Assembly: GCA_021850325.1 (NCBI GenBank)
Contig: JAJZMF010000026.1
Span: forward strand, 1 to 64,000
Direction: 5' to 3'
Length of the DNA stretch: 64,000 bases
Source: Actinomycetes bacterium
GTDB taxonomy: Bacteria > Actinomycetota > Acidimicrobiia > Acidimicrobiales > Palsa-688
The notes under the pieces are model-generated. The model searched no databases, had not been told where the DNA came from, and saw only the letters and a program-made list of their open reading frames with translations. Shown here one piece after another: positions 23,367-28,243 of the stretch; position 1 is the stretch's first letter, and each line of letters starts with the position of its first letter. A program made the translations under genes and the position numbers.

Positions 23367-24308
23367 GTGGCCTGCGGGTTGCCCCGGGGCGGGCTCTGGC
23401 CCGGGCAGGTGCTCTCGCTGCTGCCCCGATGCCGGTTCCCGCCGTCCGGGTCCGAGGTGGTGTGCGCCGTTTCCGGCGGGCCGGACTCGTTGGCCCTCCT
23501 GGCTCTGGCCGTCGCCGCAGGGTGCCGGGCCGAGGCAGTGCACGTGGACCATGGCCTGCGCCCTTCGAGCGCAGCCGAGGCGGAGGTCGTCCAAGAGGCT
23601 GCCGAGCGACTGGGTTCAGCCTTCCGCCGGGTGTCGGTCCGGGTGCCCCCCGGGCCGGACCTCGAGGCCCGTGCCCGGCGGGCGAGGTACGGGGCCCTGC
23701 CTCGTGGCTCGCTCGTGGGCCACACCGCCGACGACCAGGCCGAGACCGTTCTGCTCAACCTCATGCGGGGGGCAGGCCTGGAGGGACTGGCCGCGATGCG
23801 CCCGTCAGGAGCCGGCCTCGGCAGCGTCGGCCGTCCCCTGCTCGCTCTGCGTCGCAGCGAGACCGAGGCGGTTGTGGCCGCTCTCGGCCTGCGGGTGGTA
23901 CGGGACGAGTCCAACTCGGACCTCCGCTTCCGGCGCAACCGGACGCGGCACCAACTGCTCCCACTGCTGGCGGACATCTCGGGGCGGGACCCGGTCCCCG
24001 TGCTCGTCCGCACGGCCCGCATCCTCGGGCAGGACTCCGAGGTCCTCGCCGCCCTGGCAGGCGACCTGGACCCGACCGACGTGCGCGCCCTGCGGGCGGC
24101 GCCGCGGCCTCTGGCCAACAGGGCGCTGCGCACCTGGCTCCGCCAGGGGCCGGACCGGCACCCGCCCTCCTCGGCCGAACTGGAGCGCGTCTGGGCGGTG
24201 GTGTCCGGTCAGGCCAAGGCCTGTGAGCTGGCCGGTGGGTGCAGGGTGAGCCGGTCGAAGGGCAGGTTGACGCTGTCCCCGCCTCTGCTCCCGCCCCTGC
24301 CGGTATAG
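23367..24308 (+). CDS. tilS: tRNA(Ile)-lysidine synthase
   Basis: A 313-residue PP-loop ATPase that modifies C34 of the tRNA-Ile(CAU) anticodon to lysidine, switching its charging to Ile. The PP-loop SGGPDS is at residues 36-41; VHVDHGLRPSS, GHTADDQAETVLLNLMRGAG and DESNSDLRFRRNRTRHQLLP are all strongly conserved in TilS. The C-terminal tRNA-binding part is short, as in other actinobacteria. The GTG start directly follows the stop of the metalloprotease gene. tilS-hpt is a widely conserved pair. Confidence 0.94.
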   Translation: MACGLPRGGLWPGQVLSLLPRCRFPPSGSEVVCAVSGGPDSLALLALAVAAGCRAEAVHVDHGLRPSSAAEAEVVQEAAERLGSAFRRVSVRVPPGPDLEARARRARYGALPRGSLVGHTADDQAETVLLNLMRGAGLEGLAAMRPSGAGLGSVGRPLLALRRSETEAVVAALGLRVVRDESNSDLRFRRNRTRHQLLPLLADISGRDPVPVLVRTARILGQDSEVLAALAGDLDPTDVRALRAAPRPLANRALRTWLRQGPDRHPPSSAELERVWAVVSGQAKACELAGGCRVSRSKGRLTLSPPLLPPLPV

Positions 24309-25552: not shown

Positions 25553-25927
25553 TCAGAGGCGGGGGGCGACGGCGGCCAGGGTGCCCCCTACCAGGATGAG
25601 GACGGCCCCGACCCGGTAGAGCCAGTAGCCCACGAGCTCATAGAGCTCGGGTTCCAGCAGCTGGCCCGGCCCGAAGTAGCGGCGCCGCCAGCGGGCACCC
25701 ACCCCTGAGAAGGCGCACACGGCGCCCAGTGCGGCCAGGTTGGCCCCCAGGTGGGTGTGCAGGGCGGACATGGACCACAGGGTCGAGACGATCAGCACCG
25801 TCATCTTGGTCACAGCCCAGGCCCGGGTGAGGACGGTCCAGTGACGCCGGGGGCGCCTGGTGGCCGGTTGGAGCCGGTTCGGGACGGACCTTGGTACTGC
25901 GGTGTTACCGGCCTCCTCGAGATGCAT
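25553..25927 (-). CDS. Hypothetical small membrane protein between folE and folP
   Basis: About 124 residues from ATG 25927 (GTG 25996 would give 147). A basic N-terminus (RLQPATRRPRRHW) is followed by hydrophobic stretches VTKMTVLIVSTLWSMSA, ANLAALGAVCAFSGVG and RVGAVLILVGGTLAAVAP, so two to three membrane helices are likely. No known family is evident. It runs opposite to the folate genes and breaks their operon; codon use looks like the neighbours. Confidence that it is a gene is moderate, resting on the coherent hydrophobic pattern and the absence of any other gene there. Confidence 0.55.
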   Translation of the reverse strand: MHLEEAGNTAVPRSVPNRLQPATRRPRRHWTVLTRAWAVTKMTVLIVSTLWSMSALHTHLGANLAALGAVCAFSGVGARWRRRYFGPGQLLEPELYELVGYWLYRVGAVLILVGGTLAAVAPRL

Positions 25928-26098: not shown

Positions 26099-26881
26099 AT
26101 GCCGCTCGTGATGGGGGTGCTCAATGTTACGCCGGACTCCTTCTACGACGGTGGGCGCTGGCAGGGTGCCGGTGCAGCGGTGGAGCATGGGCTCGAAATG
26201 TTCGACCAGGGTGCCGACATAGTGGACGTAGGTGGCGAGTCCACCCGTCCCGGGGCGCACCCGGTGGACGAGGCCGAGGAGGCGAGACGCGTGGTGCCGG
26301 TCGTGGCCGCCCTTGCCGGGCAGCTGCCCCAGGGCCGCCGCCTGTCGGTGGACACGCGCAAGCCGGCCGTGGCGGAGGCCGCACTGGACGCGGGGGCCTG
26401 CATCGTCAACGACGTGTCCGCTTCGCTTTGGCCCGTCGCCGCCCGTAATGGTGCCGGCTGGGTGGCCATGCACATGCGTGGGGCACCGGCCGACATGTCC
26501 CGTTACGCCCACTACGGCGACGTCGTGCTCGAGGTCAAGTCCTTTCTCGCGGGCCGCGCCGCGCTGGCCCGGGAGGCCGGGGTAGGCGAGGTGTGGGTTG
26601 ACCCTGGTATCGGGTTCGCCAAGTCGACCCGCCACAACCTCGAGCTCCTGGCCCGCTTGCCCGAGCTCGTCGCCACGGGCTGGCCGGTGGCCATCGGGAC
26701 ATCGCGCAAGAGGTTCACCGGGGTGGCCGGGCGCACGGAGGGCTCACCCGCCCCGCCCGAGGAGAGGCTCGAGGCATCGCTTGCCACTGCCGTGTGGGCC
26801 ATGGCGTCCGGGGCGGCCATGGTCAGAGTGCACGACGTCAAGGCCACGGCCGACGCGGCGCGCCTGGTCGGGGCGAGCTAG
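26099..26881 (+). CDS. folP: Dihydropteroate synthase
   Basis: A 260-residue TIM-barrel enzyme condensing p-aminobenzoate with the pterin pyrophosphate; the sulfonamide target. Signatures: MGVLNVTPDSFYDGG at the N-terminus, ADIVDVGGESTRPGAHPV, IVNDVSA, VWVDPGIGFAKSTRHNLELL and IGTSRKRFTG. ATG 26099 puts the first strand at the N-terminus; a TAAGCT box (26082-26087) lies 11 bases upstream, so it probably begins a new transcript after the reverse-strand gene. Confidence 0.95.
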   Translation: MPLVMGVLNVTPDSFYDGGRWQGAGAAVEHGLEMFDQGADIVDVGGESTRPGAHPVDEAEEARRVVPVVAALAGQLPQGRRLSVDTRKPAVAEAALDAGACIVNDVSASLWPVAARNGAGWVAMHMRGAPADMSRYAHYGDVVLEVKSFLAGRAALAREAGVGEVWVDPGIGFAKSTRHNLELLARLPELVATGWPVAIGTSRKRFTGVAGRTEGSPAPPEERLEASLATAVWAMASGAAMVRVHDVKATADAARLVGAS

Positions 26882-26890
26882 GCGGTCGGG

Positions 26891-27403
26891 GTGAGAGGGA
26901 AGTGGGCGGCCGGCATCAAGCCGAGGTTCTTCACCTGGGTGATCAAGGACAAGCTGGCCGTCTGCGAGCGGCCCGGTGGCTACGCCCGCAACCATCGCAA
27001 GGTCCGCCGACGGGAGGAGATCCTCTGGATCAAGTGCCAGGGGTTCACGAGGGTGGTCTCGCTCCTGCCCTCCCCGCACAACCTCCACGCCTACGACGAG
27101 GAGCAGCTCAGGTGGTCCCACGTGCCCTTCGCCGTCAACGACGACCCGGCAGCAGTGCTGCCCGACCTCTACCAGCAGCTCCGGGCGTGGCTGCGCGAGG
27201 ACGAAAGGGTGGTCGTGCACCAGGAGGAAGTGAGCGACCGGTTGATGGGGGTGGTGGCCGGTTACCTGCACTGGAGCAGGTTGGTCCCCGAGAGCGCTCA
27301 AGCCGTGACCATCGTGGAGCGGCTGTTCGCCCGCCAGATGGGGCCCGAGGGCCGCGAACTGGTGGCAACGGTGTCCTCCCTGCCGGGCGGGCAGGAGCAG
27401 TAG
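26891..27403 (+). CDS. Dual-specificity-phosphatase-fold protein with degenerate P-loop
   Basis: A 170-residue protein inside the folate operon. The layout follows small DSP-like phosphatases: FTWVIKDKLAVCERPG near residue 14, GFTRVVSLLP at 51, RWSHVPFAVNDDP at 74 where the general-acid Asp would be, then VVVHQEEVSDRLMGVVAGYL. In active enzymes this last segment reads HC-x2-G-x2-R; here it is His110-Gln111-Glu-Glu-Val114-Ser-Asp-Arg117, so the nucleophilic Cys and the Gly are lost while His, Arg and spacing remain. It is therefore probably a pseudophosphatase or phosphate-binding protein. Assignment rests on pattern, not on a search. It lies nine bases after folP and four before folB. Confidence 0.6.
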   Translation: MRGKWAAGIKPRFFTWVIKDKLAVCERPGGYARNHRKVRRREEILWIKCQGFTRVVSLLPSPHNLHAYDEEQLRWSHVPFAVNDDPAAVLPDLYQQLRAWLREDERVVVHQEEVSDRLMGVVAGYLHWSRLVPESAQAVTIVERLFARQMGPEGRELVATVSSLPGGQEQ

Positions 27404-27407
27404 CGGA

Positions 27408-27794
27408 GTGGAGGCGTGGGGAGCCTTACCGGACCGCATCGAACTGCGTGGCCTCCGCCTGCTGGGCACCCATGGTGCCCTGCCCGAGGAGAGCGACCGC
27501 CCTCAGCCGTTCGAGGTCGACATCGACCTCTTCATGGACCTGGGGCCGGCCGGCCGTTCGGACGACCTTGCCGCCACGGCTGACTACGGGCTCGTGTGCG
27601 AGGCTGCCCGCCGTGTGCTCGAGGGGCCGCACGTCGACCTGATGGAGGCGCTGGCCGAAAGGGTGGCGGCTGAGGTGCTGGAGAGCGCCGGGCCCGGTGG
27701 CCTGGCGGTGACCGTATGGGTACGCAAGCTGCGCCCCCCGGTCGGGTACCAGCTCGGCTGGGCAGGCGTGCAGGTGCACCGCCGCCGCTCGTGA
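27408..27794 (+). CDS. folB: Dihydroneopterin aldolase
   Basis: A 128-residue enzyme splitting dihydroneopterin to 6-hydroxymethyl-dihydropterin and glycolaldehyde. IELRGLRLLGTHGALPEE is the conserved start, FEVDIDLFMDL and DDLAATADYGLVCE follow, and LMEALAERVAAEVL carries the catalytic region. The usual VRKLRPPV segment precedes the C-terminus. The stop overlaps the folK start (GTGA). Confidence 0.93.
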   Translation: MEAWGALPDRIELRGLRLLGTHGALPEESDRPQPFEVDIDLFMDLGPAGRSDDLAATADYGLVCEAARRVLEGPHVDLMEALAERVAAEVLESAGPGGLAVTVWVRKLRPPVGYQLGWAGVQVHRRRS

Positions 27795-28243
27795 ACAGGT
27801 CTTTCGTCGCTCTCGGTTCGAACCTGGGCGACCGGTGGGCATACCTGCGGGGTGGGGTGGCACTGCTGCCCGGCCTGGTCGCCGCCTCCAGGGTCTACGA
27901 GACGTCCCCCGTCGGCGGCCCGCCCGACCAGGGCCCGTACCTGAACATGGTGGTCGAGGTGAGCCCTTCCACCCCTCCGTACGAGCTGCTCGAACAGGCG
28001 CGCCGCGCCGAGGAGTGGGCCGGGAGGCAGCGTGGGGAGCGTTGGGGGCCGCGGACACTCGACGTGGACCTGCTCATGGTCGCGGGCCACGTGGTCGACG
28101 ACCCCGAGCTGACCCTGCCGCACCCCAGGATGTGGCAGCGGGCGTTCGTCCTGGTACCGTTGGCGGACCTGGCTCCCGAGCTGGTGGCCGGCCATCTGGA
28201 GGCGGTCGGCTCAGAGGGCGTCAGGCTCGCCGGCCAGCTGTAA
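27791..28243 (+). CDS. folK: 6-hydroxymethyl-7,8-dihydropterin pyrophosphokinase
   Basis: A 150-residue kinase transferring pyrophosphate from ATP to the pterin. FVALGSNLGDRWAYLR is the HPPK start, VYETSPVGGPPDQGPYLNMV is the substrate loop and GPRTLDVDLLM holds the Mg-binding D-x-D; LPHPRMWQRAFVLVPLADLA is the C-terminal signature. Translationally coupled to folB. In mycobacteria several small genes separate folK from panC; here panC follows after ten bases. Confidence 0.95.
   Translation: MNRSFVALGSNLGDRWAYLRGGVALLPGLVAASRVYETSPVGGPPDQGPYLNMVVEVSPSTPPYELLEQARRAEEWAGRQRGERWGPRTLDVDLLMVAGHVVDDPELTLPHPRMWQRAFVLVPLADLAPELVAGHLEAVGSEGVRLAGQL

Follow-up and report, generated by a model that had tools for sequence, protein, structure and literature searches.

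The open reading frame at the centre of this study lies between folP and folB in the window (the whole 64,000-nucleotide stretch that was analysed), in surroundings where Pfam names tilS, a phosphoribosyltransferase (hpt), folE, folP, folB, folK, panC and coaX. The genes and motifs used below are:

23367..24308, forward strand: tilS (Pfam), the neighbour retained beside the pseudophosphatase gene in family f7
26102..26881, forward strand: folP (Pterin_bind; Pfam), the upstream neighbour
26891..27403, forward strand: the putative pseudophosphatase gene with a predicted dual-specificity phosphatase (DSP) fold, 170 aa, GTG start, TAG stop (reading frame and translation, starts of homologues, dN/dS)
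26969..27019, forward strand: near-invariant charged loop R-P-G-G-x4-H-R-x-V-R-R-x-E-E, residues 27-43 (alignments)
27218..27241, forward strand: degenerate P-loop HQEEVSDR, residues 110-117, with H110 and the acids at 112 and 116 conserved, 111 free and R117 variable (alignments)
27408..27794, forward strand: folB (Pfam), the downstream neighbour
27791..28243, forward strand: folK (HPPK; Pfam)

The gene is tightly packed between folP and folB, as an earlier sequence-only reading of the locus had described; the distances are 9 nt from folP upstream and 4 nt from folB downstream, and Pfam confirms both neighbours. Its start position is common to the homologues and it is under purifying selection (dN 0.09-0.13 vs dS 0.68-2.7 with four relatives). 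A random reading frame is ruled out by this selection and by the occurrence of the protein in relatives and throughout the class; a mobile or plasmid origin is ruled out as well, the plasmid search being without match and the PHROG search of the window protein likewise. Further upstream, the gap between folE and folP measures about 600 bp in the window and is much shorter in several relatives; it holds a short hydrophobic reading frame of 83 aa on the opposite strand (25553-25804, reverse), for which no Pfam match was found.

Fold and degenerate catalytic loop

Direct family searches leave the protein without a name. No Pfam family matched it at E <=10, DSPc (PF00782) included, and nothing in the window's genome scored above the curated cut-off for DSPc; weak DSPc matches appear in three of 36 family members (best E 0.004). 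NCBIfam gave no match at 0.01 among the same 36, and a match of the window protein to a prephenate dehydrogenase model of that collection (E 0.034) is regarded as chance. A profile of 36 homologues, on the other hand, matched the DSP family protein in PDB 25xa (E 3.8e-8, positions 13-146), with HQEELSDR aligned onto its HCRAGYGR. The claim that HQEEVSDR (110-117) is a degenerate HC-x5-R loop that lost its Cys and Gly is therefore more than a chance resemblance. Similarity to 25xa extends over the whole domain, including a common WVI..KLA...PGG start and a common placement of the P-loop, but the loop reads HCRAGYGR there and HxExxxDx here, and the charged stretch that follows PGG (YxxNHRxVRRxEE) is longer here than in 25xa. 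Because the matched part of 25xa in turn finds DUSP23 (E 3.2e-24), the ancestry of the family can be put near the DUSP23-like branch; this suggested sequence link runs solely via 25xa as intermediate, DUSP23 itself being absent at E <=1 from the search with the 36-homologue profile.

Structure prediction followed by a search against DSP families, as the sequence-only reading had proposed, returned a DSP/PTP match. The best AlphaFold2 model, made from a 10-row alignment of close relatives, has a mean pLDDT of 75.1 and a pTM of 0.74, the other four of the five models having means of about 49-54; within the best model, residues 1-12 and 28-44 fall below 50, the second of these stretches being the charged loop. 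With this predicted model, Foldseek placed Tk-PTP at the top (E 9.3e-8, TM 0.70) and the best VIA-align superposition covered 142 residues (Z 16.8, rmsd 2.4). Likeness of fold to Tk-PTP, ShufPTP and DUSP23 (VHZ, 2img), with Z values of 16.8, 16.3 and 16.0, comes with an identity of 18-19%, and the nucleophile and Arg of these proteins are not conserved in the family of the window protein. The predicted structure thus places the window protein in the DSP/PTP fold.

An intact Cys in close relatives would have pointed to a recent loss. None was found: Cys is absent from position 111 in all 55 aligned order-level homologues, and among 140 distinct sequences none joins Cys111 to Arg117, the pair that marks the HC-x5-R catalytic loop. 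Position 111 holds 14 residue types over these 140 sequences, Cys being missing in 133, so the former site of the nucleophile drifts freely. The seven exceptions (five f53 sequences, which keep HCD...E, G204 and G451) carry W, K or Q at the Arg site; the two that belong to the class read HCEEVSDK (G204) and HCDDIDDQ (G451), and family relatives of G451 carry HGDDVDDL and HSDDVDDE, so that Cys is simply among the residues which this unconstrained position accepts. The loop was also said to have kept its spacing and its Arg, which is true of the window protein itself, but Arg117 is no trait of the family, being present in 87 and missing in 53 of the 140 sequences. A recent loss of Cys was rejected once the order, the class and one further family had been compared. 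On a tree rooted on f53, a weak rooting, two Cys changes account for the pattern, meaning that Cys may have persisted in the ancestor shared with f53. In the DSP/PTP superfamily an Asp serves as general acid; at the aligned position 82 it is found in 5 of 135 class sequences, and the nearby D84 (70) and D85 (77) could be shifted. With the catalytic motif missing and its loss old, the protein can be classed, as judged from its sequence, as a pseudophosphatase.

A conserved charged site

While the catalytic loop decayed, charged residues in two parts of the protein remained nearly invariant. The N-terminal motif, read with its preceding Glu, is ERPGGxxxxHRxVRRxEE, in which R36 is found in all 140 distinct sequences, R39, R40 and E43 in 139, H35 in 138, R27 in 137 and E26 in 136; in the old P-loop, H110 is present in 140/140, an acid at 116 in 139/140 and an acid at 112 in 135/140. 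The two acids interchange between Asp and Glu among family members, family f120, whose genomes are small, has lost H35, and the first 50 positions have a mean net charge of +5.6. In the distant family f53, ERPGG..HR..RR (with ERPG in G137) and H-x-D-x-x-x-E are both retained while the rest has diverged, as expected if both parts belong to one site. We infer that the N-terminal loop and the old P-loop make up a single functional site, and the alignments argue that this site is new, not merely degraded.

Such a site could be catalytic. In the main rival to the binding role that we propose below, H110, E/D112, D/E116 and the Arg loop would form a new active site in the DSP scaffold, that of a metal-dependent or acid-base hydrolase or transferase working on a phosphate ester. 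About ten charged residues almost invariant over the class are commoner in an active site than on an adaptor face, and the single-copy, near-universal presence of the protein in the class fits an enzyme too. However, searches of Pfam, NCBIfam and PHROG matched no metal-site or enzyme family, and the Asp/Glu swaps at 112 and 116 and the loss of H35 in f120, if tolerable, are unusual for catalytic residues; we hold new chemistry to be rather unlikely.

Distribution and the folate neighbourhood

Occurrence was assessed on a sample of one genome per species, with relatives searched inside the phylum and, beyond it, in PDB, plasmids and phage families. The protein is found in 57 of 61 genomes made up of its own and 60 relatives (35/35 of those of good quality), in 373 of 394 genomes of the class, as a single copy, and in 43 of 396 genomes of the phylum, of which five belong to f53 and one is a partial match in G264. 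The f53 matches cover the first two thirds of the protein only, at 63-78 bits; the G264 match (E 2.6e-4), confined to positions 83-146, was discounted and left out of the counts. The class genomes without the protein are 16 of family f31, G643, G761, G463, G502 and one further, and family f120 keeps it in all eight genomes listed, 0.9-1.1 Mb in size. Some individual matches have peculiarities: one internal stop in each of G032, G048 and G453; two equal-scoring copies at L207 (G740), oppositely oriented and separated by about 1.1 kb, which may be an assembly artefact; and, at L013 (G006), a frame that runs on without a stop into acidic sequence and into what by eye we take to be a tyrosinase-like region.

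The neighbours were surveyed in 130 genomes with the window proteins at E 1e-4, a threshold that very diverged neighbours could escape. folP is the nearest tested upstream neighbour, within <=300 nt, in 98 of the 107 class genomes outside f7, and folB or folK comes next downstream in most of the 107. This place in the operon is ancestral, and it speaks for the role first suggested from the sequence, that of a protein which regulates or scaffolds the handling of pterin pyrophosphate together with FolP, FolB and FolK. In families f36 and f37 (L102, L103, L105-L107) the order is folP, homologue, folK without folB, a second HPPK gene lying beside FolB elsewhere in the genome.

A pterin-specific role is not supported by comparison across genomes. 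The protein is kept in 15 genomes in which HPPK is undetectable (G128, G182, G204, G634, G743, G551, G561, G628, G657, G699, G701, G707, G708, G711 and G716), which are 90-98% complete, bearing in mind that absence of HPPK from a draft can reflect incompleteness; G452, where HPPK is also missing, was excluded because the contig ends beside the pseudophosphatase gene. Family f31 presents the reverse, with HPPK present and the protein missing in 16/16 genomes examined. FolP could not be used as a pathway marker since the Pterin_bind family also matches other enzymes. The protein is retained without FolB in some genomes, and in G139 folP and folB abut with no pseudophosphatase gene between them. 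In f7 the gene stands behind tilS in 18/18 genomes, with no tested fol gene inside the stretch fetched, and in f53 (L108-L112) the fol genes, tilS and the other tested neighbours are not nearby in 5/5 genomes, the genes around it giving no functional lead. In f7 genomes such as G037 (C1:2326201-2326956), FolK and FolB match places near each other in open frames of equal length (420 aa), which may mean that the two are fused as FolB-FolK.

The protein is thus not consistently present with the folate pathway and lost with it, and the double dissociation from HPPK argues that folate synthesis can do without it and that it still has work to do where the pathway is gone. It probably has a housekeeping job other than folate synthesis, and the pterin scaffold becomes improbable. 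The strong operon link to folP could nevertheless reflect a role in using or salvaging folate, one that outlasts synthesis. The same genomes bear on a more specific proposal, a phosphatase that acts on dihydroneopterin monophosphate and takes off its last phosphate; folate pathway maps usually assign no gene to this step. The DSP fold and the site between folP and folB would suit it, but Cys and Arg never occur together in the loop, the protein persists in genomes that lack HPPK and in some that lack FolB, and f31 has HPPK only; we give this proposal hardly any credence.

Candidate function and wider meaning

The position of the gene directly behind tilS in f7, with the fol genes elsewhere, raises the alternative of a TilS-linked or nucleic-acid (tRNA/RNA) binding protein whose basic loop grips RNA phosphate. 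The positive charge of the first 50 positions would fit such a protein, as would a fold common to RNA 5'-phosphatases (Foldseek). In f39 the homologue is extended at its C-terminus, in 3/3 genomes (L217, L218, L093), by a histone-H1-like 278-301 aa that include 84-87 lysines, and G571 (L126 / L176) has a tail of 80 aa with K/P/A repeats; proteins that bind nucleic acids usually have lysine-rich tails like these, which is what brings RNA binding into view, rare as the tails are in the family. However, such tails occur in two lineages only, other members having short or acidic ones (acidic in f20), and that of G571 is missing from its four congeners; the f53 relatives are not beside tilS, and the position behind it may be passive. 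RNA or TilS binding consequently strikes us as an outside candidate.

The reading that we favour, tentatively, is that of a DSP-fold pseudophosphatase acting as a housekeeping regulator or adaptor that binds an anionic ligand non-covalently in a predicted pocket. A DSP protein of the DUSP23-like branch would have lost the residues of protein-tyrosine-phosphatase chemistry, and a rebuilt charged site would have replaced that chemistry: an Arg/His-rich N-terminal loop (R27, H35, R36, R39, R40, E42, E43) may close over the old P-loop, now made up of His110 and the acidic residues 112 and 116. The pocket so formed could hold an anionic or phosphorylated ligand, whether nucleotide, phospho-metabolite or RNA end, and by binding it the protein would act as a regulator or adaptor. 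Its gene travels in the tilS-hpt-fol neighbourhood, but the protein would not be a folate enzyme. In a broader form, to which we give slightly less weight, a dead DSP scaffold may have been remodelled by the time the class arose, or earlier, and have become near-essential through a new putative active or ligand-sensing site, composed of the HRxVRRxEE loop and H-x-[ED]-x-x-x-[ED] and kept even in genomes of ~1 Mb.

Pseudophosphatases are, to our knowledge, known mainly from eukaryotes. PTPRU and the pseudophosphatase domain of PTPRK likewise have a PTP-superfamily fold without a working activity motif, but those are domains of animal receptors, whereas the present protein would be a free bacterial protein with a family of its own and a new conserved charged site. 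No paper on the window protein was found among the matches listed for bacterial pseudophosphatases, bacterial DUSP23 or Acidimicrobiia, nor among those for hypothetical genes with folP/folB/folK or for dihydroneopterin monophosphate phosphatase (passages of PMC5041015 included), though one may still exist.

What emerges is a putative bacterial pseudophosphatase that is single-copy, occurs in almost all genomes of its class and carries neither a Pfam nor an NCBIfam name. Its ancestral place in the operon invites a folate annotation against which the phylogenetic pattern speaks, f31 being a natural knockout and the HPPK-less genomes the reverse case, a warning about guilt by association. Should the scaffold indeed have been rebuilt, bacteria would possess a hitherto undescribed pseudophosphatase family that serves a core function of the cell.
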